A stretch of DNA of 64,000 nucleotides. Source: Xestospongia bergquistia. Its lineage: Eukaryota > Porifera > Demospongiae > Haplosclerida > Petrosiidae. The translations under genes were made by a program, and so were the position numbers. Numbering within the stretch: position 1 is the first letter of the stretch; each line of letters begins with the position of its first letter. Shown here piece after piece: positions 2,823-54,088 of this stretch. Location of the stretch: positions 9,016,101 through 9,080,100 of the forward strand of contig OZ014413.1 of assembly GCA_963965975.1 (NCBI GenBank), in the 5' to 3' direction. The notes beneath the pieces were generated by a model that was not told where the DNA came from, ran no database searches, and worked only from the letters and a program-made list of their open reading frames with translations.

Positions 2823-4944
2823 TTAAAAAATTGTTTCATAATGACTCTCAGTACTCTTGTTGGCTTGTATAATTTGACTATAAGCATTATTATCTTGAAC
2901 TGTTACTACATTTGGAGCACACAACTGTTGTAATGTTGTTCTTTGTCTTCTCTTCCATTTCATATATCGATAACACAGAAAGCCAGATATAAGTGAAACA
3001 AGAAGTGCTGCCAAGACTGAACTCAATACAGCTAAACTGATAAGAGTAGTCTGTGATAGTTGGTGAGTTGTTATGTCATCATTAGTACACTAGAAATATA
3101 GAACATAACATATTGAATAATGATCCATTCATCTATCAATCCGTCCATCCATCCATCTATCCATCACTCATTTTTACATATTGTTGTGGTACCATAGTTA
3201 CTGTACATTCTTGAAGAGATACAACATTCTAACTCATCAAAGATAAATTTAATCATTGTCATTTATTTGTAATTCTAACCTGGTATAGTGATATTCTTTA
3301 GTGTCTTAAAAACACCATTGACAGATTTAATGACTAACGTTGTATTATATATAAATACTTGATATTCATATAATGAATTCACTTCTAACTCTCGTAACAC
3401 AACTATTGATCCATTTTTATCTGATATCAGATTATACTGATATTTTATAGTAGAGTTGAGTGTAGTATTCTTTATATTATATACAACAGTAATATCTAGT
3501 GGTGATCCACATGGCTCTGACCACTGAACAGTGATATGTAGTACTGCAAAGTCTGAACCAATGAGATTTGTTTCAACAGATATAAAAGAAAAGATTTCTA
3601 GAAATTGAAAATTCAGTAAAATATTAATGTATTGTAAATTAATAATAATAGTTATTTGATAATTATAAAATATAAAGTGCATATATTATACTGTTTACAA
3701 TGAACAATTAAGGCATATATATATATCTCAAAACTATAATTAACAATAATTATGATGTAGATTTTTACATTACAGTATATTCTAGTATAACAAACAAAGT
3801 TAAATAGTTTACTTACCAATAGACTTTGTTGGATTGTTCTCACTTTTACCAATAACATTTGCACCTGACAATGAAAAATTATATCTTTTTCCTTGAATCA
3901 CAGGTATATTGTAGTAATATGTATTTACAGAGTATGAGATATTGTGATAAATTGACTTTCCTTTATGGTTGACAATTTGCAAAATAAAATACCAGGGAAC
4001 TGGGCGAAAATCATCTTCAACTTGAGAATACTAAACAAAAGGAGAGTTATCATTTCTGTTGTTGACATAAGTATGTTATTATGCTTACTTTCCAACTAAG
4101 AAAAGCTGCCGGTTTGTCTCATCATAAACAGTACATATTTCTAATTTAGCAACTGAAAACGGTTCTAAAATAAGATAAACTATTAAATATTAATGTAATG
4201 CTGATCTGTGCATGTAGCATAGTGTATCCTGTACTACTTACTATATGCAGTAACATTGAATGTAACATTTTCACTTTCTGGTCCAATCCCTATGCAGTTC
4301 ACTGCATACACTGTGAATATATAATTAACCAAAGGTTTCAAATTAACAATATAGGCTTTTGTATTTGGTAACATTACAAGACCCATTGGTACATTTGCCA
4401 GCAATATCAGGAGGTCTAATATTAACAGTATAATATTGAAACCCAACTTCATCGACAGCATCCCATTGTAGAAGGACACTCTTGTAAGATATAGGAATTG
4501 CATGCTTTAAGATTTAATGGAAGTATGAGATCTATAAAAATATAGCTACATTAAATGCAAGACTATATTTGAAATTCTTTCTCTTGGATATGTGGTATTG
4601 ATTACACAGGTTCTAGTATCTCCTTCATTTAAATCACAACATAATATGGCCACTCCATTGTGAGATGAATTACTTGGAAATGATAATACACTTATCATGT
4701 ACAAAGAACCTGTTTTGCTTGTAACATTAGCACTGAATTCTTTTTCATTTTTTACAGTACCAACTGATGAACCAAAAAACTCAATATCAGAAGGAAATAT
4801 TGAGCTTTTCCATTCCAATGATCCACTTTCAATTGCACAAGTAAAGTGCTGTATATCTCCTGGACAATGAAATTTTGAGTTCCCACATTGCAAGTTTAGG
4901 ATTGCTGCGGAACAAAGCTGAAATAAAATAGAGAACACTAACAT
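2823..4944 (-). pseudogene. Ig/Fn3 type I membrane receptor with long tail, unit A copy (broken)
   Basis: All six exons of the intact gene at 11554-13678 are recognisable in order: signal peptide plus Ig-like exon, Fn3 exon, short linker exon (4089-4164), Fn3 exon (3817-4030), Fn3 exon (about 3280-3597), and a TM/cytoplasmic exon ending at 2823. Several lesions break it relative to that copy. The exon 1 donor is GA instead of GT (CCAAGAGAAAG against CCAAGTGAAAG). Exon 2 has a 4-nt insertion after LNLKA and a 1-nt insertion before the TKAYIV motif. Exon 3 is 76 nt rather than 83. Exon 6 lost 8 nt at its start, which puts TAA in frame. The tail itself (QLCAPNVVTVQDNNAYSQI, ending SHYETIF) is conserved, so decay looks recent. 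The start used is the ATG shared with unit B; ATGs at 4965-4968 would extend it. Confidence 0.8.
3128..3170. repeat. Imperfect (TCCA)n short tandem repeat
   Basis: A run of CCATCCATCTATCCATC type tetranucleotides lies in intron 5 of the pseudogene. A similar tract lies at the equivalent place in unit B (about 11871-11910), so it predates the duplication. Confidence 0.7.
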
Positions 4945-5141
4945 TGTTGTTACGCTAAAATGCATCATAGAGTAAAGTTTACCTTATTATCTATGGAACC
5001 ACCTCCCACATCTAGGAGGTTGGGTGCATACTTGAGGTTTGCTGAGTTTGCTATTAATATAATACTAGTTGCTGATTCAGTCTTCAAAAAGCTATAAAAT
5101 AAGATGTTATAAGGTAAGACATTTCACTCTATATTGTTCAA
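4945..5141. promoter_or_regulatory. Divergent intergenic region between long-tail (-) and short-tail (+) Ig/Fn3 genes, unit A
   Basis: About 200 bp separates the two head-to-head start codons and must hold both promoters and 5' leaders. A TATA-like CTATAAAAT sits at 5092-5100 on the + strand, about 45 bp before the + gene ATG. On the minus strand an AATAAG/GTAAAC donor-like sequence near 4980 could pair with the TTTATTTCAG just inside the minus gene signal-peptide coding region. The layout is conserved in unit B. Confidence 0.45.
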
Positions 5142-7034
5142 ATGATGATGACTGAAGAAGGTTTTTTAATTATATTCTTTTCGATATCATGTATCATCAT
5201 CCCCTTCGGTCGGTAAAGAACTCATAGTAATGTTATGTTATATTCTCTTTTGTTTAGGTTGTACAGCAAGTAATGTGACTTTAAACTGTGATGACTTTCT
5301 ACTAGCATGTCCAGGGGAAAAAATCCAGTGTGTCTGTACTGAATACCTTAAATTTAATGAGACTGCAGCTGGTTTCGATTTAAAGTCACCTATATTCTTG
5401 AATGATATTTCCATCTTTGCAAAATCCCCAGTGAATTTCACAAATGTTGATCCCAAAGGCTTTGTAGTAACTGTGATTGAGAGAACAGACAGCTATTTGA
5501 AAGCTGCATTACATTTCTATGCAAATCCCTCCTTCCAACATCAGAAGATTACGTGCGTGAGTTTTGGTAATGGAGATCATCAAGACTCCCGTACAATTCA
5601 ATTTCCCAGTAAGCTATAGTAGATAAATATGTATTTGAAATGTCATCATTTTTTCTTATAGACCCTCCATCGTCACCAAAACATTTTAGTTATACATCAA
5701 AAAATTACAATAGTGTTGTTGTTAGTTGGGATCCACCACATAGGACAGAAAGAGAACCAGCCCTTACTGGATATATCCTTAAAATAAGTCCTAAGCCTAA
5801 AGGTGGTCACTGTAAAAGTGGAAGATGCCCATTATTAAATGAGTCTGCTAAGAATTATACAATTCATCATTTAAAATTTGGTATAAAGTATACTATAACA
5901 ATTGTAGCATTGAACTGTATTGGAAGAAGTGATAACACGTTAATTGAAGTACTAACTATTGCTGAGAGTAAGTCTGTTAGAACTTTTAATATTTTATAAA
6001 ATGCTTGTTTCTATTAGAGCCACATATTAATGCTAATGTCACTGTAGTACATGACATGGCTACTTCTGATAGCAATGAGTCTGATTTCATTGAAGTCTCG
6101 TGGAATGTTAGTGTATTAATAAGAAACTATAACCTTTATTTAACCCTAATCACACAGATCATGGAGTCTAATCGGCAACCACCAATCAACTTGTTGAAAA
6201 TTGAACTAGAGCATGACAACAGGAAGATTTACAATGTGGCATATTCTGTCACTAACCACACCCATATTTTCCCGATCAAACATAATGATGATTCCTATGT
6301 TGCAAGATTAATTGCTGAAAATGCTAAGGGTCGCAGTGTTGTATCAAAAACTATTTATAAGTATTAACTACAAAAACAAATTGGTTATTATGATTCATTT
6401 TATTAGCTAATAGGTTTCCTTTTAAAGTGAATATCAGTCTCTATGATACTAATACATTCCAAATTGACTGTATACGTAGAAGACTACTTCATTCATGCAC
6501 TGTAATGCTACATAATGGCACCACGTTAACAAAACAATTTGGTAACTTAAAGATCATTTCCTTCCAGTTCTCAAGAAATAATGCCACAGAAGTTCGTTAT
6601 ACTATGTCTACTGAAGTCATAAGAGGCTTTTCTTCTATAAAAACATTTTACAAATCTAGACATGTATATCGTTACGAATATAATATACCTATAAATCTGA
6701 CAACAGGTAAATAATCAAGAAAAACAACAATCCAATTAAGCAACTAAATATACCAGTCTCTTTATAATTATTATTATTATGTTCACAGTATGTAACCTAG
6801 TACTATTACTGTATATAACTATATAATACACATTTCCTTGAAGTGATTTAAGCAATATTAATCTAATTATAATGACATTTCATCTATTGTATTGTACTAA
6901 TGTTATATTATTATTTACCTTTATTAGGCACTAATACTACTGTTGCTACAAATTCATGTCAAAGATACAATCTACATATTTATATCCTTATCGTGATGGT
7001 TGTCATGGTGATTATGTATTTAGAACACTTTTAA
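5142..7034 (+). CDS. Ig/Fn3 type I membrane protein with minimal tail, unit A copy (one mutated donor)
   Basis: Six exons parallel the unit B gene: 5142-5208 signal peptide, 5258-5608 Ig-like, 5662-5967 Fn3, 6018-6356 Fn3, 6407-6706 Fn3, 6928-7034 TM. All junctions are phase 1 and would give 489 aa. The ATG at 5142 is preferred over 5230 because exon 1 differs from unit B only by in-frame indels and joins in phase through a GTCGGT donor. The TM segment reads LHIYILIVMVVMVIMYLEHF and ends at once with stop, so there is virtually no cytoplasmic tail. Two changes suggest decay. The intron 4 donor at 6357 is AT where unit B has GT, and an Ig-domain Cys (DSC in B) is Arg (DSR). Reading into intron 4 stops at 6367, which would give a soluble protein lacking the last Fn3 domain and the TM. 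Ligand unknown. Confidence 0.65.
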
Positions 7035-7638
7035 ACTTCACAACAATAATTTAGACCATTTTAAACTTGTTTACAACATATTATAATCATATTATTTGGC
7101 TCTATCACCTTATTTTTTTAATGTCTTAATATTGTCTTAAAATTGAAACATTAAACATTTGTTTGACATAGCAAGCACCATCAATTAATATAAAATTATT
7201 ATACGTTACCTTTGCTTCCTGTGAGTAAAGGTTGGGTGTGTACTTGTGTATGTATAATAGAATGATCAAAAGTTGGCCATTTGGGGAAATCCCTGGGATT
7301 TCACCTATTGTATGTATTGAAATAATGTAACCAGTGGATAGATATAAACTCAATACTCTATCAATGACATCATAGTCATTTCTATATATAGATCTAATAT
7401 ACAAATCACATCTAAGTTAGTAAATGTGCATGTAATAAAGCATGTTGCACAGTGCTCAGAAAAGATATTATGCATATGAAATATTTCCATAAACCTCACA
7501 TTACACATATCATATGACATACACCTACCAATAACAGTTGCTATAAGACCAATTAATACTGTAGAGTGGTTAATAATGATGTAATGACTAATTTTAAGAT
7601 TAGAATATCACAATAGCAACTCAATCAATATATAATCA
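7035..7638. other. Intergenic, duplicated flank of ALG8 3' end
   Basis: No gene. Several blocks match 15900-16400, the stretch downstream of the ALG8 stop codon in unit B, showing that the duplicated segment once reached ALG8. Confidence 0.55.
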
Positions 7639-7718
7639 TTAGTTAGTATGTGATTTATATCCTATAACAGATATTACTGATATATCAAGTCCCAGGGTGA
7701 GTACCCACGTCCAAACCA
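7639..7718 (-). pseudogene. Remnant of the last ALG8 codons
   Basis: Read on the minus strand this matches the end of the true ALG8 at 16410-16488: a TWVLTLGLDIS-like stretch followed by GYKSHTN and stop. Only about 26 codons survive. At 7719 the similarity stops and an unrelated Ig/Fn3 fragment begins, marking a duplication or rearrangement breakpoint. Confidence 0.75.
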
Positions 7719-8312
7719 ACAAATTGTATAATTCTTAGCAGATTCATTTAATAATGGACACATTCCACTTCTACAGCAACCACCTTTAGGTTTAGGACTT
7801 ACTGTAATGATATATCCAGTAAGGGGTGATTGTCCTATGTAGTGGATCCCAACTAGTAATAAAACTATTGTAAGTTTTTGAAATATAATCAAAAGCTTTT
7901 GGTGAAGATGGTGGGTCTATAAGAAAAGAATGACGACATTTCAAATACATATTATCTATAACTTACTGGGATATTGAATTATACAGGAATCTTGATCTCC
8001 ATTACGAAAAACTCACACATGTAATCTTCTGATGTTGGAATGAGAGATTTGCATGGAAATGTAATGCACCTCTCAAATAGCTGTCTGTTAACTCTCTCTA
8101 TCACATTTACTGTGAAGCCTTTGTCATCAGAAGTTGTGAAATTCACTAGGGATTGTGCAAAGATCAGAATATCTTCTGAAAATAAAATTGACTTTAAATC
8201 TAAGCCAGCTGCAGCGTCATTAAATTTAAAGTATTCAGTACAGATATACTGGACTTTTTCCCTGGACAAGTTAATAGAGAGCTATCACAATTTAATTAAA
8301 ATAGTTGAATAG
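7719..8312 (-). pseudogene. Inverted Ig/Fn3 fragment (short-tail receptor family)
   Basis: On the minus strand, 7979-8300 encodes an Ig-like exon close to exon 2 of the short-tail genes (KVQYICTEYFKFND, LVNFTTSDDKGFTV), and 7719-7912 an Fn3 exon close to exon 3 (PLTGYIITVSPKPKGG, CPLLNESAKNYT). The orientation is opposite to the parental genes. Frames are broken: there are indels around FERCITFPC, and bases are missing between the WDP motif and PLTGY. The Fn3 exon is cut at NYTI where it meets the ALG8 remnant. No signal peptide, TM exon or other exons are present. Confidence 0.75.
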
Positions 8313-8689
8313 TTGAGCCTATTAGAAGATACAAGATCTTACTTAAATGGAACATCACTATATAGTGGACACTACAGACGTCTAGTGAACCTTAAGCCAT
8401 ATACTTCCTTGATAAGTAATAGGCATGTGTATGACCTTCAATATAATAGACTTGATCAAGTTCACTATATCTCCCACTATAGAATTCATGGCTTTATGTA
8501 TTTTTATACCAATGTGTGAATGTGAACGTGAGAATTTAATAGTTATATAGATCATATGACCTTATTTATATTGTTATAATTCATTTCCTGCTTGGATATT
8601 ACATCATACTGAAATAGCCACTTCATGTATGATAAAAAACAAGGCCCAATGATTATATACTGACCCCTATAACTACTGTATTTTCTACA

Positions 8690-9252
8690 ACTCTGAGTGA
8701 AGTATTACAAGGTATATTACTGTATTATCTGATGGCAAAGAATTGTGGATTGTTGATGAGGTAATGATAAGTGTACTTCAGTATTACTGGCTAATACTCT
8801 ATAAAGTAGAGAGCACAATATTATTGTTGAATGGAGCCGTGCAGATACTGTATGTTATTTCTTTAGTGTAATATTGTGTTATATAGCTGTGGCAATAAAA
8901 GATTTGCTCTGGATTCTAAGAGAAGCCTTATCTGGAAGAGTAAGATATTATTTGATGATAAAGGATATCCTTTTGATTCATTGCTCAAAGTTTGAAACTA
9001 TCTCCTAGCATCCACCTCGATAGAGAATTGATAATTTTTATTAACACTGAAAGTAATTTCATTTATGTCCTCTCAAGTAAAGATGGTTCACTTCAAGTTC
9101 CCTTAAGCTTGAACATAACAGATTTACCTGGCTATATATAATGGATGTGTTGAGCTTCCTATTTTAGTGGGAGACGCAGTGTATTTGATAAAAGCTGAGT
9201 CAGAATATTACATCTCTTATTTGTATAGTACTTCACTGTTAAAATGTTCTTA
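8690..9252 (+). pseudogene. Decayed PQQ-propeller gene copy
   Basis: Bases 8887-9252 match PQQ exon 2 behind a still recognisable ATATAG acceptor (CGNKRFALDSKRSLIWKSK), but a TGA interrupts the frame after FDSLLKV and an indel follows PGY. Upstream, 8700-8850 retains faint exon 1 similarity (a DGKELW-like codon run and the following block). It probably represents the PQQ gene at the end of unit A or the start of unit B, now nonfunctional. Confidence 0.75.
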
Positions 9253-9489
9253 ATTAATTCCAATATTTATTATTATGAATGTTATTATTCTTTGCTTAAA
9301 CAATTTAATATGGTTATCACTAAAGATGCATAATTATATCTTTCATTATCTATTTTTTAAAAATTGTTGCTCATGAATTACTAGCTAATAAGTAATCCTA
9401 TTGAAAATTATTACTCATGAATAATACATATTGTCAAGTAATGAATGTCATTGATATTACTATTGCATCAGACTGATCTATATTTCATA

Positions 9490-10954
9490 ATGTACTTGGT
9501 ACTTCTCTGTTTACAGCTTTTCCTTTATTCAACTCTCTCCTCTTGGACCCAACAAAATGGAGATCCAGCATCAACAAACTACATACCTCTACCTAAGACA
9601 CTGCCTGTAAAAACTAATTGGAATTACTCAGTACCTTATGATGAAGTGTATCGTGTATCTATTTTCTACAATTCTCCTTCTTTATCAAATGAAGGTGTAA
9701 TCTTTATTCCTTTTGCAATAACTCTGTCACTTCCATTTCGTGTACTATTTCAAGTTAGAGCTGTCTCACCAGATGGTAAAGAGTTGTGGGTTGCTCCACA
9801 TGATCTTACTAATGATGAAAATTGTGCCTCCATTTTGTTGACAAACACTTTGTATAGTCATGAGCAAAATATGGTTATTATTGCATGGAACTGTGCAGAA
9901 GCATTTCCATATTATGAGAAAGCAGGTCAGGTGGTGGCCTTAAATGCTACTAATGGCTCTATTATTTGGAAGACATCAAAATTGAAAGTGAACGATGTGG
10001 CTACTCTTTCTATGAGTTTAGATACTGTCTTTCTTATTGGTGGTTATTCTTGTTTTAGGGATACTTATTCTAACCTTCTGTATGATCAGGAAAATAAGAC
10101 TCAAATTATAGCAGTAGATTTAGTTACTGGTAAAGTACTTTGGAATAGAATAGAAAATCATGGAGGCTGTCGCACTCAGACCAAACTGACTCCACTAAAA
10201 AATGGCTCTAGTTTGGTAGTTTTTCCAGTTAATCTACCTCCTGGAGCCTATCCTGTTGGTGATTTATTATCATTGACTTGCTCTCCAGGTTCTTCTCATT
10301 GTAATCAGGCTTGGTTTGATCATCTTAAAATCTCTTACGATGCTAAGTTTGCCTTCTCTGATAATGGAGTCATGTTTGGTAGTTATGGTTATTCTGGTAC
10401 TCCAGATCTTATCTTTGCATTGGATGTAGAAAGTAATCAGATCTTATTTAGCAATCGAGGTTATTGTGATTCTGGTATTTATCCGAGTGGTCCTGCAGTA
10501 GATAAACAAGGCTATGCCTATTTTAGGTAAGTTTATATTCTACAATGTTGTACATCATTTGTATAGTGTAATATTAAGCTATTCTTTATTATATAGCTGT
10601 GGTAATAAAGGGTTTGCTGTGAATTCTAAAGGAAGTCTTATCTGGAAGAGTAAGACATTATTTGATAATAAAGGCTATCCTTTTGATTTATGGTACAAAC
10701 TATCTCCTGCCATCCACCTTGATAGAGAATTGGTAATTTTTATTAATACTGAAAGCACTTTTGTTTATGTGCTTTCAAGTAAAGATGGCTCACTTCAAGG
10801 TTTCTTGAACATAACAGATTTACCTGGCTATAATGGATGTGTTGAACCACCTATTTTAGTGGGAGATGCAGTGTATTTGATAAAAGCTGAGTCGGGATAC
10901 CAAATCTCTTATTTGTATAGTATTCCACTAGTTAAAATGCTCACTGTCACATGA
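9490..10954 (+). CDS. Secreted PQQ-like beta-propeller protein, copy B (2 exons, 464 aa)
   Basis: Exon 1 is 9490-10526 and exon 2 10597-10954, split in phase 2 by a 70-nt intron at the same position as copy A. Both copies give exactly 464 aa. The ATG at 9490 is preferred to the in-frame one at 9445 because it aligns with copy A and opens the signal peptide MYLVLLCLQLFLYSTLSS; the longer form would bury it. Propeller-type repeats (DGKELWVAP, NGSIIWKTS, TGKVLWNR) are intact. Compared with copy A most differences are scattered substitutions such as DEVYRVSIF for DKIFRVSVF, with no indels. This suggests both are under coding constraint. Probably secreted; ligand or activity unknown. Confidence 0.87.
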
Positions 10955-11553: not shown

Positions 11554-13678
11554 TTAAAAAACGGTTTCATAATGACTCTCAGTACTCTTGTTGGCTTGTA
11601 TGATTTGACTATAAGCATTATTATCTTGAACTGTTACTACATTTGGAGCACACAACTGTTGTAATGTTATTCTTTGTCTTTTCTTCCATTTTATATATCG
11701 ATAACACAGGAAGCCAGATATAAGTGAAACAAGAAGTGCTGCCAAGACTGAACTCAATACAGCTAAACTGATAAGAGTAGTCTGTGATACTAGTTCTAGT
11801 TGGTGAGTTGTTATGTCATCATTAGTAGGAAAACTCACTAGAAATATAGAATATAACATATTGAATAATGATCCATCCATTTATCAATCCATCCATCCAT
11901 CCATCCATCCCTCCTTTTTACATTTTGTTGTGGTACCATAGTTACTGTACATTCTTGAAGAGATACAACATTCTAACTCATCAAAGATAAATTTAATCAT
12001 TGTCATTTATTTGTAATTCTAACCTGGTATAGTGATATTCTTTAGTGTCTTAAAAACACCATTAACAGGTTTAATGACTAATGTTGTTGTATTGTATACA
12101 AATACTTGATATTCATATAATGAATTCACTTCTAACTCTCGCAACACAACTATTGATCCATTTTTATCTGATATCAGATAATACTGATATTTTATAGTAG
12201 AGTTGAGTGTAGTATTCTTTATATTATATACAACAATGATATCCAGTAGTGATCCACATGGCTCTGACCACTGAACAGTGATATGTAGTACTGCAAAGTC
12301 TGAACCAATGAGATTTGTTTCAACAGATATAAAAGAAAAGATTTCTAGAAATTGAAAATTCAGTAAAATATTAATGTATTGTATATTTATAATAATAGTT
12401 ATTTGATAATTATAAAATATAAAGAGTATATATTATATTGTTTACAATGAACATCTCTATCTCAAAACTATAATTAACAATATGATGATGTTGATTTTTA
12501 CATTACAGTATATTGTAGTATGACAAACAAAGCTAAATAGTTTACTTACCAATAGACTTTGTTGAATTGTTTTCACTTTCACCAATAACATTTGCACCTG
12601 ACAATGAAAAATTATATCTTTTTCCTTGAATCACAGGTATATTGTAGTGATATGTATTTCCAGAGTATGAGATATTGTGATAAATTGACTTTCCTTTATG
12701 GTTGACAATTTGCAAAATAAAATACCAGGGAACTGGGCGAAAATCATCTTCAACTTGAGAATACTAAACAAAAGGAGAGTTATCATTTCTGTTGTTGACA
12801 TAAGTATGTTATTATGCTTACTTTCCAACTAAGAAAAGCTAAATCTGTCTGGTTCGTCTCATCATAAACAGTACATATTTCAAATTTAGTAACTGAAAAT
12901 GGTTCTAAAATTAAGATAAACATTTGAATATTAATGTAATGCTGTTCAGTGCATGTAGTATAGTGTATACTACTTACTATATGCAGTAACATTGAATGTA
13001 ACATTTTCACTTTCTGGTCCAATCCCTATGCAGTTCACTGCATAAACTGTGAATACATAATTGACCAAAGGTTTCAAATCAACAATATAGGCTTTTGTAT
13101 TGGTAACATTACAAAATCCATTGGTACAGTTGCCAGCAATATCAGGAGGTCTAATATTAACAGTATAATATTGAAACCCAACTTCATCATTGACAATGTC
13201 CCATTGTAGAAGCACACTCTTGTAAGATATAGGAATTGCTTTAAGATTTAATGGGATTGTGAGATCTACAAAAATATAGCTACATTAAATGCTAGTCTAT
13301 ATTTAAAATTCTTTCACTTGGATATGTGGTATTGATTATACAGGTTTTAGTATCTCCTTCATTTAAATCACGACATAATATAGCCACTCCATTATAAGAT
13401 GAATTACTTGGAAATGATAATACACTTATCATGTACAAAGAACCTGTTTTGCTTGTAACATTAGCACTGAATTCTTTTTCATTTTTTACAGTACCAACTG
13501 ATGAACCAAAAAACTCAATATCAGAAGGAAATATTGAGCTTTTCCATTCCAAGGATCCACTTTCAATTGCACATGTAAAGTGCTGTATATCTCCTGGACA
13601 ATGAAATTTTGAATTTCCACATTGTAAGTTTAGGATTGCTGCGGAACAAAGCTGAAATAAAATAGAGAACACTAACAT
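11554..13678 (-). CDS. Ig/Fn3 type I membrane receptor with tyrosine-bearing tail (6 exons, 516 aa)
   Basis: Exons on the minus strand are 13318-13678, 12978-13265, 12822-12904, 12550-12763, 12024-12344 and 11554-11837. All have GT-AG borders and consistent phases, giving 516 aa. Order of parts: signal peptide MLVFSILFQLCSAA; an Ig-like domain with CPGD...FTC and a later Cys pair; an Fn3 domain (VLLQWD, GFQYYTVNI, YAVNCIGIG); two further Fn3-like regions, the last with VQWSEPCGSPLDITVVY; a TM helix (LISLAVLSSVLAALLVSLIS); then a basic stop-transfer and a tail of about 55 residues. The tail has AYSQI and ends SHYETVF, which fits the S/I/V/L-x-Y-x-x-V/L/I ITIM pattern and also a class I PDZ ligand (T-V-F). 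It is divergently paired with the short-tail gene at 13905. It is probably a surface recognition or adhesion receptor; signalling is inference. Confidence 0.82.
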
Positions 13679-13904
13679 TGTTGTTAATTTGAGACGCTAA
13701 AATGTATCATAGAGTAAAGTTTACCTTATTATCTATAGATTCTGGAGAACCACCCCTTACATCTAGGAGGGGAGGGGTTGGTACATAGTTGAGGTTTTGT
13801 TGACTGCTTACTGAGCATAGATGCTGACATTAAGATGACTCACTCCGTCAAAAAAGGCTAATATTTAAACGGCGCGGTAAGATATTTAGTTTATTTTGAT
13901 TCAA
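13679..13904. promoter_or_regulatory. Divergent promoter region between the paired Ig/Fn3 genes, unit B
   Basis: 226 bp lies between opposed start codons. It includes the same minus-strand AATAAG/GTAAAC donor-like sequence as unit A and a GCGCG/GTAAGA donor-like sequence on the + strand near 13873, so untranslated leader exons are possible on either side. An 8-nt insertion here, relative to unit A, closes the longer minus-gene reading frame and supports the start at 13678. Confidence 0.45.
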
Positions 13905-15785
13905 ATGATGATTGAAAGTTTTATAATTATATATTTTTCAATATCATGTATCATCATCCCCTTTGGTCAGTAAACAAGTCGTAGTAATATTGTTATAATT
14001 ATGTTTCTCTTTTGTTTAGGTTGTACAGCAAGTAATGTGACTTTAAGTTGTGATAGCTCTCTATTAACTTGTCCAGGGGAAAAAGTCCAGTATCTCTGTA
14101 TTGAATACTTTAAATTGAATGAGGATGCAGTTGGCTTTGATTTAAAGTCAACTTTATTCTCGAAAGATATTTCAATCTTTGCACAATCCTCAGTAAATTT
14201 CACAACTTCTGATGACAAAGGCTTCACAGTAACTGTGATTGAGAGAACAGACAGCTATTTGAGAGGTGCATTACATTTCCATGCGAATCTCTCATTCCAG
14301 CATCAGAAGATTACGTGTGTGAGTTTTCGTAATGGAGATCAAGATTCTTGTATAATTCGATTTCCCAGTAAGCTATAGTAGATAAATATGTATTTGAAAT
14401 GTCATCATTTTTTCTTATAGACCCACCATCTTCACCAAAAGCTTTTAGTTATATATTAAAAACTTACAATAGTGTTGTCATTAATTGGGATCCACCACAT
14501 AGGACAGAAAGAGAACCACCTCTTACTGGATATGTTGTAACAATAAGTCCACCACCTAAAGATGGTCCCTGTAAAAGTGGAAGGTGTCCATTGTTAGATA
14601 AGTCTGTGGAGAATTATATGATCCGGCATTTACAATTTGGTGTAAATTACACCATAACAATCTCTGCAATGAACTGTATTGGAAAAGGAGATGATGTGTT
14701 AATTAATGTGCTAACTAAAGCTGAGAGTAAGTCTGTTAGAACTTTTAATATTTTATAAAATGCTTGTTTCTATTAGGGCCACATATTAATGCTAATGTCA
14801 CTGTAGTACATGACATGGCTACTTCTGATAGCAATGAGTCTGATTTCATTGAAGTCTCGTGGAATGTTAGTAAATTATTAATAAGAAACTATAACCTTTA
14901 TTTAACCCTAATCACACAGATCATGGAGTCTAATCGGCAACCACCAATCAAAGTGTTCAAAATTGAGCTAGAGTATGATAACAAGACTTACAATGTGACA
15001 TATTCTGTCACTAACCACGCCCACATTTTCCCAATCAAAAATAATTACAATACTTATTTAGTAAGGTTGATTGCTGAGAATGCTAAGGGTCGCAGTTTTG
15101 TATCAAAAAGGATTTGTAAGTATTAACTGCAAAAACAAATTGGTTATTATGCTTCATTTTATTAGCTAATAGGTTTCCTTTTAAAGTGAATATCAGTCTC
15201 TATGATGCTAATACAGTCCAAATTGATTGTATACGTAAAAGACCACTCCATTCATGTACTGTAGAACTACAAAGTGGTACCACTTTAACTAAACTATTTG
15301 GTAACTTAAACATCATTTCCTTTAAGTTCTCAAGAAATAATACCACAAAATTTTATTATATTGTATCTACTAAAGTCACAAGAGGCTCTTCTCCTATAAA
15401 AACTTTTTACAGATCTAAACACGCATATCTTTATGAAAATAATATACCAAATATGACAACAGGTAAATAATTAAGAAAAAAATACCATTAAGTAACTAAA
15501 TATAGCAATCTCTTAATAATTATTATAATGCTCACAATGTGTAACCTAGTACAATCACTACTATATATCTGAGTCTGTTTATAGTGCACATTTTCTTATA
15601 GTAATATAATCAATACTAATCTAATTACTAATTGTAATGACAGTTCAGCTATTGTATTAATGTTATGTTGTTATTTACTTTTTTTAGGCACTGTTGCTAC
15701 AGGATCATGTCAAAGATGCAATGTGCATACTTGTATCCTTGTCATGATGGTTGTCATGGTGATTATGTATATAGAACACTTTTAA
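13905..15785 (+). CDS. Ig/Fn3 type I membrane protein with minimal cytoplasmic tail (6 exons, 482 aa)
   Basis: Exons are 13905-13965, 14020-14367, 14421-14726, 14777-15115, 15166-15462 and 15688-15785. Every internal junction is phase 1, which is typical of shuffled extracellular modules. Exon 1 encodes the signal peptide (MMIESFIIIYFSISCIII) and is spliced by a GTCAGT donor. Exon 2 is an Ig-like domain (LTCPGEKVQYLC, ITCVSF). Exon 3 is Fn3 (VVINWDPPHRTE, YTITISAMNCIGKG). Exons 4 and 5 each encode an Fn3-like unit. Exon 6 has a short stalk and one TM helix (CILVMMVVMVIMYIEHF) that ends within two or three residues of the membrane. It lacks any signalling tail, in contrast to its divergent neighbour, so it would need partners or act as decoy or adhesion molecule. 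Ligand unknown. Confidence 0.82.
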
Positions 15786-16409
15786 ATTTCAGGACTATTT
15801 ATAATACTAGTTTACATTGTACTACATTAATATTGTCTGGCCCTATCATCTATATTTTTTAATGTCTTCATTTTTTTTAAATTCGAAACATTAAATTTTG
15901 TTTGATGTAGCAAGCACATCAATTAATATAAAATTATATGTTACCTTTGAGTAAAGGTTGGATGTGAAACTTACACGTAAAGTGATTAGCTAGTTGAGAA
16001 ACATCCCTGGGGATATTTCCACATATAAAAACATAATTAATGGCAGCATATCATTATATATTGTATTAAAATAATATAGTGGGTTGATATAAACTCAGAA
16101 CTCTATCCATGGCATCAGAGTCATTTCTATATACAAATCATGCCAAGTTAGTTAATGTACATGTAATAAAGCATGTGCTCAGAGAAGATATACATAAATA
16201 TTTATAAGGGAAAATCCCTGGGGGTTTCCCCATGTCTTGGCATATAAATTACATTGAGAGAAGAATGTGTACTTATATCTTCATACTACTACATACACCT
16301 ATTAATAACTGTTGCTATAAGACCAATACTGTTACTATATATAGAGTGGTTAATAATGATGTAATGAATAATTTTAAAATTAGAATACAACAATAGCAAT
16401 ATATAAGCA
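15786..16409. other. Intergenic between convergent short-tail receptor and ALG8
   Basis: 3' flanks of two convergent genes with no coding signal. Blocks recur at 7040-7640 in unit A. Confidence 0.5.
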
Positions 16410-22242
<5,833 letters not shown>

Positions 22243-33635: not shown

Positions 33636-34499
33636 TTAATAACGATGAAGCAAAACAATTTGTGAACAGAGGCTCTCTTCAAGACCACAATCTGGTAGGA
33701 CATAGTTCTCATGTGATCTTTGTGTACCAAGTTCTCTTAAATTATTAACACTAGCAAGTAACTGATCTAATCTCCAGAGACCAAGATGACGACTCTTGCC
33801 ATGTCTTGCAAACACATGAACATTGTTACATTTCATTAGAATGTCAACTAATGATAGAAATTGTATTGAAGTTTTTAATTTATCACTAGGTGGTAATAGA
33901 TAGTGCTTCGGATATGAGGACACTTCATTGCAATATGAAATCAACTCTTTTAATATTGGTAAATCTTTTTTTAGAGGAAAGGTTACCCCTACAACTAAAC
34001 ACCAGTGGGCATAGTGTCCAGAACCCAAGCAAGGGGTATGATCTTTATCACAGTCATAAGGGATCAATATAGGACAATAAGAGATAATCCAGTCAAGTAA
34101 CATATTTGGAGTAACCTCTGTACTTAAAATAACATCTCCTTTACAAGATAGTGTTTCTTTTGCTATTGAAAGTAAGTGACGTGAGGATAATACTTCACCT
34201 TGTTTGGTATAACCTCTACTTTGTGAATAGGTTAACAATTGTAATGGCTCTGCATTTGTTCTTATACTACCATTCATTAGTTCATCAGCCATTGTCACTG
34301 CTACTAAGCCACACATTGGACGACCACGTTGAAGAACAGGGCGAACGTTGTTGATACATGTAATATAGGTAACAGTTTCGTCATATGTGTAGTTTTTCTC
34401 GATAAAAGTCCTTTGAACTAGATCAGAAACTTCCGAGATTAGAGGAAGAGGTTCACTAATGATAGGATCATTCTCCTTTGAGACTGTTGTTGAAGACAT
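33636..34499 (-). CDS. ACTMAP: Actin maturation protease ACTMAP (C19orf54-like), unit 1 copy
   Basis: Intronless, 287 aa. The family is a papain-fold cysteine protease that removes the acetylated N-terminal residue of newly made actin. Family landmarks are in order: QRGRPMCGLVAV with the presumed catalytic Cys at residue 63 and oxyanion Gln at 58; RGYTKQGEVLS; LIPYDCDKDHTPC; GHYAHWCLVVGV with presumed catalytic His at 165; HGKSRHLGLWRLDQL; and CGLEESLCSQIVLL at the C-terminus. It has no signal peptide, consistent with a cytosolic enzyme. It is head-to-head with the SHQ1 5' exons, 76 bp apart. The unit 2 copy (41835-42698) has the same length with only scattered substitutions (R60H, K180N, F216I and a few others), so both appear functional. 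Confidence 0.88.
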   Translation of the reverse strand: MSSTTVSKENDPIISEPLPLISEVSDLVQRTFIEKNYTYDETVTYITCINNVRPVLQRGRPMCGLVAVTMADELMNGSIRTNAEPLQLLTYSQSRGYTKQGEVLSSRHLLSIAKETLSCKGDVILSTEVTPNMLLDWIISYCPILIPYDCDKDHTPCLGSGHYAHWCLVVGVTFPLKKDLPILKELISYCNEVSSYPKHYLLPPSDKLKTSIQFLSLVDILMKCNNVHVFARHGKSRHLGLWRLDQLLASVNNLRELGTQRSHENYVLPDCGLEESLCSQIVLLHRY

Positions 34500-41834: not shown

Positions 41835-42698
41835 TTAATAACGATGAAGCAAGACAATTTGCGAACAGAGGCTCTCTTCAAGACCACAATCTGGTAGGAC
41901 ATAGTTCTCATGTGATCTTTGTGTACCAAGTTCTCTTAAATTATTAGCACTAGCAAGTAACTGATCTAACCTCCAGAGACCAAGATGACGACTCTTGCCA
42001 TGTCTTGCAAACACATGAACATTGTTACATTTCATTAGAATGTCAACTAATGATAGAATTTGTATTGAAGTTTTTAATTTATCACTAGGTGGTAATAGAT
42101 AGTGCTTCGGATATGAGGACACTTCATTGCAATATGAAATCAACTCTTTTAAAATTGGTAAATCGTTTTTTAGAGGAAAGGTTACCCCTACAACTAAACA
42201 CCAGTGGGCATAGTGTCCAGAACCCAAGCAAGGGGTATGATCTTTATCACAGTCATAAGGGATCAATATAGGACAATAAGAGATAATCCAGTCAAGTAAC
42301 ATATTTGGAGTGACCTCTGTACTTAAAATAATGTCTCCTTTACAAGATAGTGTTTCTTTTGCTATTGAAAGTAAGTGACGTGAGGATAATACTTCACCTT
42401 GTTTGGTATAACCTCTACTTTGTGAATAGGTTAACAATTGTAATGGCTCTGCATTTGTTCTTATACTACCATTCATTAGTTCATCAGCCATTGTCACTGC
42501 TACTAAGCCACACATTGGATGACCACGTTGGAGAACAGGGCGGACATTGTTGATACATGTAATATAGGTAACAGTTTCGTCATATGTATAGTTTTTCTTG
42601 ATAAAAGTCCTTTGAACTAGATCAGAAACTTCCGAGATTAGAGGAAGAGGTTCACTAATGATAGGATCATTCTCCTTTGAGACTGTTGGTGAAGACAT
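41835..42698 (-). CDS. ACTMAP: Actin maturation protease ACTMAP (C19orf54-like), unit 2 copy
   Basis: 287 aa, intronless and collinear with the unit 1 copy. All presumed catalytic features are kept: QRGHPMCGLVAV (Cys63), GHYAHWCLVVGV (His165), LIPYDCDKDHTPC and CGLEESLCSQIVLL. Residue 60, two before the motif PMCG, is His instead of Arg; further changes are conservative. It is head-to-head with SHQ1 exon 1 across 76 bp, as in unit 1. Conservation of both the coding frame and the divergent spacing argues that each copy is expressed. Expected to act in the cytosol on nascent actin. Confidence 0.88.
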   Translation of the reverse strand: MSSPTVSKENDPIISEPLPLISEVSDLVQRTFIKKNYTYDETVTYITCINNVRPVLQRGHPMCGLVAVTMADELMNGSIRTNAEPLQLLTYSQSRGYTKQGEVLSSRHLLSIAKETLSCKGDIILSTEVTPNMLLDWIISYCPILIPYDCDKDHTPCLGSGHYAHWCLVVGVTFPLKNDLPILKELISYCNEVSSYPKHYLLPPSDKLKTSIQILSLVDILMKCNNVHVFARHGKSRHLGLWRLDQLLASANNLRELGTQRSHENYVLPDCGLEESLCSQIVLLHRY

Positions 42699-49706: not shown

Positions 49707-49749
49707 TAAGACTAAGTCTTCATTCTTACTAACCGACTGAACATTTAAT

Positions 49750-52700
49750 ATGTTACAATCATATATCTTTACCTTTCTATTCTGCTATATGTTGTCATCA
49801 TCTGAAGCAGTTAATCCTATATATGTTAAAAATGGCACAGAACTCATTGATTATTTGTGTGACCAACTTCTTCCTAAAGATGCCATCTTGATTTTGAACG
49901 ACTCTGTGAAATATGTAATATATCAACAGAATCGTTTTTGCCATGTTCGTGCAAAGAACTCCATCACAATAACGAGTATTTCTTCCAACATTGCAGACAT
50001 TAAGTGTAAGCCTTGGAATCACTCATATCCTCTTCCAACTAGTGGTTTCAGTTTCTATGATGTTTCTGTCAATATTACTAATGTTAAATTATCCCATTGT
50101 GGAGCCGAACTCATAACCTTAAACAATACTTTGCTAAGCATCCTAAATTCTTCACAGCTCTATTATTCCTCTCATCATTCAGCAACATTGTTGTTTGTTG
50201 ATTGTATTGTTGCTATCAGCTTTGCAAAGATCAGTACCTATTATGGATTTGCTGTTCTTGGTATTAACATTCGTGGTTTGAATGTCACAAAGACGTTAGT
50301 CTCTGGCTCAATTAACAGTGACATTGAGGTTCCAGCTAGGACAAATGGCTCTGTAAGTATAGGTAGTGGAATGATGCTACACTTCTATGATGAATCTGAA
50401 GCTGTGAAATTCACAGATTCCACAATCAAATTATACATTGAAAATTCCCATTTTCATAAAAATGCTGACTATGTCTTTTATGGTGATTGTATTACTAAAA
50501 TCTATTATAAAATTGAGCTTAACAACACTGTTTCACAGCCAGTTGTTAATGCTGCTGGTTTAACTTTAATTTTTAACCAAAAAAAGTTTAACATAGACTT
50601 TGTTATGAATGGAAGCCATATTTCCAAAAATGGAGGGACTTTAGCTGGTGGAATGTTGATCTTTATGCTCCATACTATCAATGCTGTTATTCATATCAAC
50701 AATAGCTTGTTCGATACCAATATCAATTTAAGTGAATGCTATGGTAGTGGTCTTGTTTATTATTTTCTTCTCCAAAATTCATCATTACCAGTAAATTCTA
50801 AAGATTTAAATGCTGGGACTAGTCTCTCTATTACTAACACTTATGTGGCATATGACATAGGACTTCGATTTAATTCAGCTGGAATTGGAAAAGCAGGAAC
50901 TGGTGCTCTATCACTATTAGTTTATAATGAGTTTAAGAAATATTGGGTGAAATTTCATCTCAAAAATGTGACATTCCATGACAATGTGGCAGAATTCAGT
51001 GGATCCTGTTTAATGGTCTCGGTGTATGGGAATGTATTCTATCCTATTCCTAAAGTCTACTTGATCTTAGAGAGTATTCTGGCCTATAGTAATTCTCAAG
51101 CTGCAATCCAGTCCTCTGCCAGTAATGCTGGTATGTTTTCTTTTTCTCGGGTATATCGTGTTGACATCAATGGATCATCAAGCCACCCTAGTATGTTTTA
51201 CGATAACTATGGATCTGTCATAGAGGGAACTGACTCACAATTATACCTGAATGGATATGTTGTGTTTGCAAGGAACATTGGTAGATTTGGTGGAGCACTC
51301 AGTTTAACAAACACATACTTGACTTTTTTGCAGTCTTCACATATTTTGTTCAGCAACAACACTGCTCAGGAGCTGGGTGGAGCTATATATGCTTACAGAA
51401 CTAGAAACAATATTATTCCACATTGTGCTATTGGTATTGCTTCCAATGCAGATAAGCTGAATGTAACATTCAACAACAACACTGCTGTTCTATCAGGCAA
51501 CTCCATATTTGCCTATCCACTTTACTGGTGCTATTTAAATCGCTATCAGCTTGCTAAAAACAGTGATGAATCTTATAGAAATCATTTTTATTTTGTCAAT
51601 CATGGTGGCAACCCAAATGACTTGTTCGACATATCAACTGAACCTTGTAAAATAAATCATTACAAAACTCAACCAACATTGGCATCAACATTTTATCCTG
51701 GTGAAACAGTTCGTTTGAATGTCACAGCACAGGATGTGGTTGGTCATCATACATTTGCTACAATTAGCATTGGTATTGCTAAAAAGTCTAAAAAAGGGCA
51801 CAAACTTGAGGCATCAGATTGGCAGATCCCATTTTCACAATACTATCAAATAATACGAGAGAGTAAAAAGAATGCATGTTCTACGGTCTCCCTGACAATA
51901 CAAGCTAACACAGAAGATCATTGCTCTAGGAATGAATGTTTCGCTATTATCCTATTTTCATCTATCTTCTCTGGCAACACTTTTCAGGTCCCTATTCTTT
52001 TTAAACCCTGTCCCTTGGGTTTCCATAATCATGATGGTGTCTGTGTATGTGATCCTGTGTTTAGTTCATTGTCTGCAAATATACAATGCTATATTGATAA
52101 CCAAACTATATATACTGGTCTTCGTTATTTATCTATATGGGTAGGAGAATATCAATGTAATAGGCATGAAAAAACATTAGCTGTAACTGACAACTGTCCA
52201 ATTGGTTATTGTGGCAGTGTAGGCTCATCTAATTGGATCCAATCTCTTCCTGAAGGAAAGTTTGCACTCAAAAGTACTAATGATCCCACCAGATACAAAC
52301 CTTTGTGTCTTCCATACAGAGAAGGAATATTGTGTGGGCAATGCAAGAATGGATTAAGTGTAGTATTTGGTTCAAGAAAATGCATGGAATGTTCTAGTAA
52401 CTGGTGGCTTTTGACTGTAATCCTCTATGTAGTGGCTGGTCCCCTCCTTATTTACCTGTTATATGCTCTGAGACTTACATTAACAACTGGTACACTCAAT
52501 GGAATTATATTCTATGCTCAAGCTGCTAACTGTGGATTGTTTGAATACATCAATCATTTTGAATCAAAGCAGTACACAGAAACTCGATTTGCTGATGTTT
52601 TGCTTTCCATTTTGAATCTGAATCTTGGTTTTCCTTTATGTTTTTATAATGGGATGACAGAGTTATGGAAAGCTGGTCTCAGTTTACTATTTCCACTTTA

Positions 52701-53589
52701 TCTCCTAACAATAGTTGTTGTCCTTATCATCCTCAGTCGTTTTTCCTTGAAGCTTTCCAACAGAATAGCTGATTCCTCAGTTCAAGTACTAGTTACTATT
52801 GTACACCTCTCCTTTTCAAAGTTGCTACTGGCAATTATTGATGTCTTTACATTAACTGTATTGTACACAAAATATGGCAAACATCAGGTCTGGTTCTGGG
52901 ATGGTTCAGTAGACTATTTGTCTAAGGAGCATATAGTATTAATGTCCTTCACTATCTTCATTGTTTTTATCTTTATTGTTCCCTACCTTCTACTGCTAGT
53001 AGTTGGAAGAGTGCTTTTTAAATGTCGCATTGGCAACAAAGTAAGACCTTTCTATGAAGCTATGCATGGCCCTTACAAAGAAAATAAACGATTTTGGTTT
53101 ACTGTACGTTTGTTTGTTCTTATCATTATGTATGCTATATTTGCATCTCTACGCGGCCAAAAAGATTCATTTGTTCTTCTCCTTACAACTCCTATATTGG
53201 TGATTTTTACCATAATACAAGCTTACATCAAGCCATTTAAGAAAAGAATTATCAACATACTTGATGTCATAGTGATGGTTGATTTCACATTGATATACGT
53301 AGTGGGTTGGTATGGTACTGTTGTAGTGAATGAACCTAATACACAGAATGCAATGCTCAGTTTTGCACTTTTTTCAAATGCTTTTCTGTTATTATTGTTT
53401 TTGGTAGTTCTTATTGGCCACATTCTTTGGGTGACTGGAAAGTTACCACTATTGAAACATCTTGTTAGGTTTTATCTGTTAAGAGGTGTAGCGGTATCTA
53501 TTCGTCACAAAAATCAGAGGTTGGTAAATGCTAGTAACTCATATTATGGGTCTTGTTCCCAGTTTCGAGAACCCATTCTTGAATATTAA
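49750..53589 (+). CDS. Large beta-helix / multi-TM surface protein, gene 1 (1279 aa, intronless)
   Basis: It has a signal peptide (MLQSYIFTFLFCYMLSSSEA). An ectodomain of roughly 750 residues is rich in short beta-helix-like repeats with N-N-T-A and G-G-A motifs (HILFSNNTAQELGGAIYAY, VTFNNNTAVLSGNSIF), as in right-handed parallel beta-helix proteins. A Cys-rich stretch near residues 753-885 (CPLGFHNHDGVCVCDP, GILCGQCKNGLSVVFGSRKC) leads into about 8-9 TM helices. These start with WWLLTVILYVVAGPLLIYLL and the signature LRLTLTTGTLNGIIFYAQ, then LLFPLYLLTIVVVLIILSRF, HGPYKENKRFWF and VLIGHILWVTGK. The cytoplasmic end is SYYGSCSQFREPILEY. It is intronless among intron-rich neighbours. The sister gene follows in tandem at 54089. 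Likely a plasma-membrane receptor or adhesion protein; no activity can be assigned. Confidence 0.85.
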   Translation: MLQSYIFTFLFCYMLSSSEAVNPIYVKNGTELIDYLCDQLLPKDAILILNDSVKYVIYQQNRFCHVRAKNSITITSISSNIADIKCKPWNHSYPLPTSGFSFYDVSVNITNVKLSHCGAELITLNNTLLSILNSSQLYYSSHHSATLLFVDCIVAISFAKISTYYGFAVLGINIRGLNVTKTLVSGSINSDIEVPARTNGSVSIGSGMMLHFYDESEAVKFTDSTIKLYIENSHFHKNADYVFYGDCITKIYYKIELNNTVSQPVVNAAGLTLIFNQKKFNIDFVMNGSHISKNGGTLAGGMLIFMLHTINAVIHINNSLFDTNINLSECYGSGLVYYFLLQNSSLPVNSKDLNAGTSLSITNTYVAYDIGLRFNSAGIGKAGTGALSLLVYNEFKKYWVKFHLKNVTFHDNVAEFSGSCLMVSVYGNVFYPIPKVYLILESILAYSNSQAAIQSSASNAGMFSFSRVYRVDINGSSSHPSMFYDNYGSVIEGTDSQLYLNGYVVFARNIGRFGGALSLTNTYLTFLQSSHILFSNNTAQELGGAIYAYRTRNNIIPHCAIGIASNADKLNVTFNNNTAVLSGNSIFAYPLYWCYLNRYQLAKNSDESYRNHFYFVNHGGNPNDLFDISTEPCKINHYKTQPTLASTFYPGETVRLNVTAQDVVGHHTFATISIGIAKKSKKGHKLEASDWQIPFSQYYQIIRESKKNACSTVSLTIQANTEDHCSRNECFAIILFSSIFSGNTFQVPILFKPCPLGFHNHDGVCVCDPVFSSLSANIQCYIDNQTIYTGLRYLSIWVGEYQCNRHEKTLAVTDNCPIGYCGSVGSSNWIQSLPEGKFALKSTNDPTRYKPLCLPYREGILCGQCKNGLSVVFGSRKCMECSSNWWLLTVILYVVAGPLLIYLLYALRLTLTTGTLNGIIFYAQAANCGLFEYINHFESKQYTETRFADVLLSILNLNLGFPLCFYNGMTELWKAGLSLLFPLYLLTIVVVLIILSRFSLKLSNRIADSSVQVLVTIVHLSFSKLLLAIIDVFTLTVLYTKYGKHQVWFWDGSVDYLSKEHIVLMSFTIFIVFIFIVPYLLLLVVGRVLFKCRIGNKVRPFYEAMHGPYKENKRFWFTVRLFVLIIMYAIFASLRGQKDSFVLLLTTPILVIFTIIQAYIKPFKKRIINILDVIVMVDFTLIYVVGWYGTVVVNEPNTQNAMLSFALFSNAFLLLLFLVVLIGHILWVTGKLPLLKHLVRFYLLRGVAVSIRHKNQRLVNASNSYYGSCSQFREPILEY

Positions 53590-54088
53590 GAGCTATTTTT
53601 TGACTTCTGTTTAAGTAATTTTCTTCCTTTTTTGAGTGCAAAAATTAAATAACAATTTTTACTTCCATTGAATTAATTATCAATAGTTTACTTATAGATT
53701 TTATTTAAGTAGTAATATTAGTGTCTGTTTTTATAAATAATATTATTTACCTTTGTTTATAAACACATTGTATATAAAGGATAATGATTAAATATCTCAC
53801 ATGTAACTTTCAGGTGATCATAATATGTTAAGCTGTTATAAACATGAACTTTTTAAATGCATGCATTCACTATTTAGGTACTATGTGACATAATCAACTA
53901 GAAAATGTCACGTCAATTATTTATAATAACACTCAAGTTTGTTTGCCAGTAGTTCTTTTTCTTAAGGTGCTTGTTAACTAATTGAACATTATAACATGTT
54001 TGTACAATCTTATATAAGTGATTCACAGTTCAGTGTGTTCCGACAAAACATATTGTATCATCCACTGTCCTTTTAATTGGATGTATTC
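53590..54088. promoter_or_regulatory. Intergenic region with TATA box before the second surface-protein gene
   Basis: About 500 bp between tandem genes. TATATAAG at 54011-54018 lies 70 bp before the ATG at 54089 and is the likely core promoter. Otherwise AT-rich and featureless. Confidence 0.5.

Follow-up and report, generated by a model that had tools for sequence, protein, structure and literature searches.

Head-to-head Ig/Fn3 receptor gene pairs with tyrosine-motif tails and motif-less partners in the sponge Xestospongia bergquistia

A 64,000-nucleotide stretch of the Xestospongia bergquistia genome (GenBank assembly GCA_963965975.1, contig OZ014413.1, positions 9,016,101 to 9,080,100 of the forward strand; hereafter the window) carries a head-to-head pair of receptor genes that is repeated along the same contig (C3). 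In this module a receptor with a V-set-like immunoglobulin (Ig) domain, fibronectin type III (Fn3) units and a tyrosine-containing tail stands beside a gene whose product has a related ectodomain but no distal tyrosine motif. In pairs A and B the partner's anchor is a short hydrophobic C-terminus; in pairs C, D and F it is an ordinary transmembrane (TM) helix with a tail of 18–23 residues. The reading that we prefer, to which we give close to an even chance and no better, is a co-expressed module of a phosphotyrosine-signalling receptor and a non-signalling co-receptor, in which the former recruits SHP-type phosphatases and dampens a response.

The spliced models of pair B (Table 1) each comprised six exons and were open throughout, giving 516 residues for the long-tail receptor (longB) and 481 for the tail-less partner (partB); they bear out the divergent long-tail/short-tail pair of the preliminary description, which had been made from the letters of the window. 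longB has a type I layout (signal peptide and TM, read from the sequence) and runs from the signal peptide through the V-set-like Ig domain, about three Fn3 units and the TM helix to a tail of about 50 residues, in which the AYSQI and C-terminal SHYETVF noted earlier were read. partB consists of a signal peptide, an Ig-like domain, Fn3-like units and a C-terminal hydrophobic segment, in agreement with the common Ig and Fn3 ectodomain plan already described. Structure prediction, which had been proposed as a check, was performed on longB exon 1 using AlphaFold and gave a V-set-like fold with a modest pLDDT of 69. Only Fn3 was matched above the Pfam cut-off, in longB, partB and the long gene of pair C (longC), with a sub-cut-off Fn3 match in its partner (partC); no Ig family was matched by Pfam in the receptor models. 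The long and partner ectodomains were 29% identical in pair B and 24% identical in pair C.

Further pairs, which the preliminary description had suggested looking for, were sought in four exon searches. At least 53 Ig-exon places were found, 11 on C3 and 42 on contig C2, in a list compiled by hand from the best-scoring candidates of the exon queries, the weakest of which lie near E = 0.07 and a few of which contain stops. Five divergent pairs in one C3 cluster, damaged copies included, account for 10/11 C3 hits (gaps 277–642 bp); the remaining hit is the broken fragment in the window (Table 1). These 11 do not include an Ig-like fragment at C3:9009691-9009870, which contains a stop. Pairs C, D and F lie no more than 28 kb to the left, the long copies of D and F being truncated. 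The pair A block (2826-7034) is a duplicate of pair B, 87.5% identical, with damage in both genes: the stretches homologous to exons 2 and 3 of the long gene shift the reading frame, and this copy is probably a pseudogene, while the partner is probably non-functional because no GT is present where the exon-4 splice donor should be. Pair A is thus probably decaying. Complete open models were obtained for longC (544 residues), partC (481), partD (469) and partF (477), with introns set by eye at GT-AG. In pairs B and C both neighbours, the one with and the one without a tyrosine-motif tail, are complete. Contig C2 yielded one tight divergent pair (605 bp; 2/42 hits) and one loose pair (5.4 kb). 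Several of the receptor pairs are adjoined by, and were duplicated together with, a PQQ/BamB-like beta-propeller gene whose product looks secreted (PF13360, E = 2.6e-6, one copy scanned).

Long-type tails were taken from pairs B and C, from the tight C2 pair (locus L038) and from the DNA downstream of 12 more C2 Ig exons (L039-L050), which covers 12 of the 42 C2 Ig exons and three within L038, one of these, with internal stops, being left out. One tail was kept per subfamily (n = 11); the near-copies from pair A, the loose exon near pair D, L040, L045, L046, L049 and L050 were dropped, and extra tail-like exons in L039, L049 and L050 were left uncounted. The C2 tails were taken from open reading frames (ORFs) and have approximate borders. 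A weak tail match was seen at C2:5538297 (E = 0.4). The background consisted of 810 tyrosines in 29 other long ORFs from the same fetched regions, some of them mutually paralogous.

Yxx[ILV] accounted for 29 of the 47 tyrosines in the 11 tails (shuffled mean 9.0, reached in 0/5000 shuffles), although two of the 29, YRYI and YMWL, sit at the membrane and are unlikely to function. This rate of 62% compares with 20% (162/810) in the background (Fisher p = 2e-9). NxAYxx[IV], a motif defined on the very tails scored, occurred in 7/11 of them (shuffled mean 0.01, 0/5000) and at 0/810 background tyrosines; the broader NxxYxx[ILV] was present in 9/11 and NPxY in 3/11, with N at -3 kept as NNAY, NDAY, NTAY, NPAY, NSAY, NKAY and NPVY. 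Strict immunoreceptor tyrosine-based inhibition motifs (ITIMs) numbered eight (shuffled mean 2.3, reached in 13/5000), the form [SIVL]xYxx[ILV] being present in 6/11 tails and represented in longB by SHYETV. In the C2 pair the minus-strand gene has VIYADL and VIYSTL and the plus-strand gene VVYEEI and ISYGPV. Two immunoreceptor tyrosine-based switch motif (ITSM) sites were found, which is chance level. The strict activation motif (ITAM, Yxx[IL]x6-12Yxx[IL]) is absent from longB and occurred in 1/11 tails, again at chance level (713/5000 shuffles), and was provisionally set aside, though the tail of damaged copy A, not among the 11, fits it.

Exact pattern searching of the genome with HYET[IV]F-stop matched the two window copies (pairs A and B) and nothing else, and longC ends in DAYGIILEHIHRY without SHYETVF. 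The motif on which the preliminary description had chiefly relied is therefore local, and the widespread NxAYxx[IV] is that of the family. What survives of the ITIM-like tail is that tyrosine motifs exceed chance across relatives and that SHYETV fits the pattern; SHYETVF itself is restricted to the two window copies and, being absent from longC, does not provide a family ITIM, an outcome that the preliminary description had itself named as counting against its proposal. A class I PDZ ligand, also read earlier from this C-terminus, was likewise set aside as a family feature.

The partB stop codon lies three residues past a short hydrophobic run that is preceded, by eye, by small residues and a spacer, and the copy A partner has the same kind of end. 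The best 19-residue hydropathy was 2.2 here versus 2.7 for the longB TM helix, and features of a glycosylphosphatidylinositol (GPI) signal fit by eye; partB may be GPI-anchored. The partner had been described as ending directly after a TM helix (MYIEHF-stop): the stop stands, but the run resembles a GPI signal. The corresponding segments of partC, partD and partF are ordinary TM helices (borders by eye). None of the four complete partner models (B, C, D and F) has Yxx[ILV] past the membrane segment. An overlooked cytoplasmic exon of partB was set aside after five tail queries (long B and C; partners C, D and F) were run on 15688-20000 with a best E of 3.5; the same queries beside copy A (6928-9400) gave a best E of 0.076 (17 residues, opposite strand). 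An unrelated cytoplasmic exon may nevertheless exist. In partners B, C and D the hydrophobic segment contains neither Lys nor Arg. Partner F has Asp within its segment and Lys at the end or border, and a partial partner (E, locus L029) has Asp; a basic residue in some other TM segment would be a possible counterpart for these Asp residues.

longB and longC are 64% identical (dN/dS 0.45). Identity between partB and partC/D/F was 25–27%; among themselves partC, partD and partF are 66–69% identical (dN/dS 0.74–0.91), their C-terminal stretches being about 30% identical versus 62–87% elsewhere. Between copies A and B, dS was 0.03–0.10 in long exons 1, 4, 5 and 6 and 0.07–0.41 in five partner exons. 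In the tree the three long genes group with support 98/98; partners A and B are separate from C, D and F on long branches. All partners fall on the same side of a split supported at 98/98, under long-branch warnings, and their monophyly is at most tentative. The partner has either changed much faster or been replaced.

Phosphotyrosine readers and writers are both present, since SHP-type and SH2-kinase genes were found. SH2 and protein tyrosine phosphatase (PTP) searches located seven single-frame SH2-SH2-PTP genes, at C7:8.318 Mb, at C3:0.916 Mb and five at C3:1.265-1.284 Mb, together with an interrupted copy in the latter array and a copy split over exons at C6:0.200 Mb; Pfam was run on two of these genes. 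The C7 ORF (8318067-8319560) matches PTPN11 (SHP-2) over 517 residues (E = 1e-196) and shares its SH2-SH2-PTP plan; the difference lies in number, with seven single-frame genes here, five of them in one array, and one more with introns on C6. Mammals have two SHP-type genes, a number exceeded here. The PTP signature is HCSAGIGRTG in five of the seven, HCSSGIGRTG in one and QCSNGIGRTG in one, the last, in place of HCSAGIGRTG, lying in the array (C3:1265457-1283528). Three of the five intact single-exon array genes end in IYENV or IYENI, which we take to resemble a tail tyrosine of human SHP-2. An SH2-tyrosine kinase gene array was found on C6 (1622265-1697212, L013); the one copy scanned with Pfam had no SH3 match within its open frame. 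Large clusters of PTP-domain exons were also seen on C5, C9, C10 and C2; those on C5 and C10 overlap Fn3-hit regions, which suggests expanded Fn3 receptor phosphatases.

Under the co-receptor reading, the long and partner genes would be co-expressed from a shared promoter region and act on one cell surface. The long member would bind a ligand, its tail tyrosine (N-x-A-Y-x-x-[IV], plus the ITIM in pair B) would be phosphorylated by Src-type kinases, and the phosphorylated tail would recruit SH2 proteins, most likely SHP-type phosphatases, thereby dampening the response. The partner, the faster-changing member, would be a ligand-binding co-receptor or decoy unable to signal alone. Self/non-self recognition is, by analogy, the likeliest use. 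Several observations weigh against this reading. The excess of strict ITIMs over background is modest (8/47, 17%, versus 55/810, 7%; p = 0.017) and longC has none, NxAYxx[IV] was scored on the tails that defined it, and N at -3 is equally typical of NPxY-type phosphotyrosine-binding (PTB) or endocytic motifs. The damaged copy A tail, YSQI-x10-YETI, fits a strict ITAM. Partner E has SSYLAV, an ITIM-pattern site, at its TM edge, where the nearness of the membrane probably prevents it from functioning. partB is about equally far from longB (29%) and partC (25%). Both tails of the tight C2 pair bear tyrosine motifs, so the tail-less partner arrangement is seen in the C3 cluster only. The additional SHP genes may have nothing to do with these receptors.

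The strongest competitor, though rather unlikely, is that the tail tyrosine belongs to an NxxY/YxxPhi signal for sorting or PTB binding, which governs endocytosis or cytoskeletal attachment in adhesion or uptake receptors. The N at -3 retained across tails (NxxYxx[ILV] in 9/11, NPxY in 3/11) would suit this equally, and ectodomains built of Ig and Fn3 units are characteristic of adhesion molecules; one sorting signal, however, needs fewer than 29 Yxx[ILV] among 47 tyrosines, and several tails have a second motif of ITIM form (VVYEEI, VIYDEI, VVYEEV, VIYADL, VIYSTL). Tyrosine motifs of this form suit SH2 rather than AP-2 binding. An activating tail of ITAM-like or YEEI type, read by Src-type or Syk-type kinases, with the partner as a decoy, is unlikely: longB YSQI-x10-YETV matches a loosened ITAM definition that admits V, the strict form is seen in copy A and an SH2-kinase array is present on C6, but the strict form is at chance level in the representative tails (1/11, copy A excluded), the motifs of L038 (plus), L041, L042 and L043 lie 16–20 residues apart in our own reading, and longC has no second distal motif.

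Decidedly unlikely, in our judgement, is a partner with no signalling role, produced by tandem duplication of head-to-head Ig/Fn3 adhesion genes with drifting tails in a compact genome. The damage to both genes of the 87.5% identical pair A and the divergent C-termini of partC, partD and partF speak for it; against it, complete ORFs have survived in four partners and two long genes, the tail motif of the long genes is maintained across paralogues and the divergent arrangement is found five times. The vertebrate analogy of the preliminary description, taken in the form of an inhibitory member with an activating twin that would signal through a TM-charged adaptor, was set aside as very improbable. 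Long/short pairing within a cluster recalls it, but vertebrate paired inhibitory and activating receptors have closely similar ectodomains, whereas those of the sponge pairs are at most 29% identical. An ITAM-adaptor activating partner is not indicated, because partners B, C and D lack Lys and Arg in this segment and partB, which ends three residues beyond it, may be GPI-anchored; partners F (Asp, Lys) and E (Asp) are less clear on this point.

The closest plan, in our best reading, is that of the fester family (FF) and fester co-receptor (FcoR) pairs of Botryllus rather than of vertebrate inhibitory/activating twins. In the account cited, FcoR of Botryllus schlosseri are type I receptors of 520–610 residues with a V-type Ig domain and ITIM, hemITAM or core Y-x-x-I/L/V motifs; FF and FcoR form adjacent gene pairs in multigene clusters, are co-expressed and are tied to fusion/rejection, FF having no known signalling motifs and fester and uncle fester encoding no known signalling domain (PMC12065747). 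The sponge pairs share the V-type Ig type I receptors, adjacency, a tyrosine-motif tail on one member and clustering; they differ in that FcoR has sushi and C2-Ig domains in place of Fn3, and Botryllus is an ascidian; homology is not implied. Neither sushi nor C2 Ig domains were found by Pfam in the sponge receptors. ITIM-like tails in invertebrate Ig receptors have been reported before, in Botryllus and in Hydractinia, where alr-locus genes contain ITIM/ITAM motifs (PMC12065747). Hydractinia Alr proteins resemble the sponge receptors in their V-set-like Ig domains, ITIM/ITAM motifs, candidate role in allorecognition and non-bilaterian origin; the accounts cited mention neither Fn3 units nor a tail-less gene paired with them (PMC12065747, PMC11999971). 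SIRP family members likewise combine related ectodomains with differing tails, being inhibitory (alpha), DAP12-associated (beta) or adhesion-modulating (gamma) as outlined in PMC12975943. SIRP are vertebrate proteins, and the sponge long and partner ectodomains are far more diverged (29%). Among sponge proteins, the Geodia sponge adhesion molecule occurs in long and short forms. It too is an Ig-domain surface molecule, but no Fn3/ITIM pair is described in the account cited (PMC11999971). Among the papers listed in literature searches, none dealt, judged by title and abstract opening, with ITIM-like tails or paired Ig/Fn3 receptors in a sponge. Relatives may already be catalogued as sponge cytokine receptors, since pipeline-called members of that class are dominated by tyrosine kinase, Ig and Fn3 domains, as summarized in PMC8242945.

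That the sponge possesses a working ITIM/ITSM-SHP inhibitory recognition system, with V-set/Fn3 signalling/non-signalling pairs, a lineage-specific SHP array and a use in self/non-self recognition, is possible but doubtful. If true, it would be the deepest-branching system of this kind, and a counterpart, independent or ancestral, to FF/FcoR in Botryllus and Alr in Hydractinia; if confirmed, tyrosine-based inhibitory immune-type signalling would extend to a third deep animal lineage besides cnidarians and ascidians. How sponges reject grafts and recognize cells at the molecular level has, to our knowledge, long been an open question. Named genes and peptides for testing are supplied by this clustered V-set-like family with its conserved tyrosine tails and fast-changing partners, in a genome with extra SHP-type phosphatases.

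Table 1. Coordinates of the receptor genes and of other features. Positions are those of the window unless a locus is given.
Feature	Position	Strand	Basis or remark
Long-tail receptor gene (longB, pair B)	11554..13678	-	Spliced model, homology, AlphaFold of exon 1
longB last exon: stalk, TM helix and tail (NNAYSQI; C-terminal SHYETVF)	11554..11837	-	NxAYxx[IV] common to relatives
longB Ig-like (V-set-like) exon	13318..13678	-	AlphaFold
Gap of 229 bp between modelled longB and partB start codons; candidate shared promoter region	13679..13907	.	Distance alone
Tail-less partner gene (partB, pair B)	13908..15785	+	Spliced model, homology to longB, one Pfam Fn3 stretch
partB last exon, GTVATGSCQRCNVHTCILVMMVVMVIMYIEHF-stop; GPI-signal-like or very short TM	15688..15785	+	Sequence, tail-query search
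Long-tail copy of pair A; open tail exon with SHYETIF at its end	2826..4944	-	Homology
Second partner copy (pair A), ends MVVMVIMYLEHF	5142..7034	+	Homology
Broken partner fragment with many stops, covering Ig and the first Fn3 stretch	7698..8361	-	Homology
Pair C, long gene	L028 5770-9081	+	Complete open model
Pair C, partner	L028 5269-2894	-	Complete open model
Pair D, partner; truncated long copy adjoining	L029 596-3114	+	Partner model complete
Loose C-type tail exon near pair D	L029 ~4354-4609	+	
Pair F, partner; truncated long copy adjoining	L027 5209-2198	-	Partner model complete
Asp-bearing TM segment, partner F	L027 2198-2352	-	
Asp-bearing TM segment, partner E	L029 ~7189-7364	+	
PQQ/BamB-like gene copies	401-1878, 9445-10954 (+); L027 6394-7862; L029 7560-9020		
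Actin maturation protease-like copies	33636-34499, 41835-42698	-	Pfam
Multi-pass protein array	49741-53589, 54077-57844	+	Similar ORFs in L030, L031

Elsewhere in the window, a single-exon gene of 287 residues resembling actin maturation protease (PF21646, E = 2.6e-32, one copy scanned) is duplicated. Pfam on one protein of an array of large single-exon, apparently multi-pass proteins gave a sub-threshold match only; several members of this array share the end motif YGSCSxFREP.

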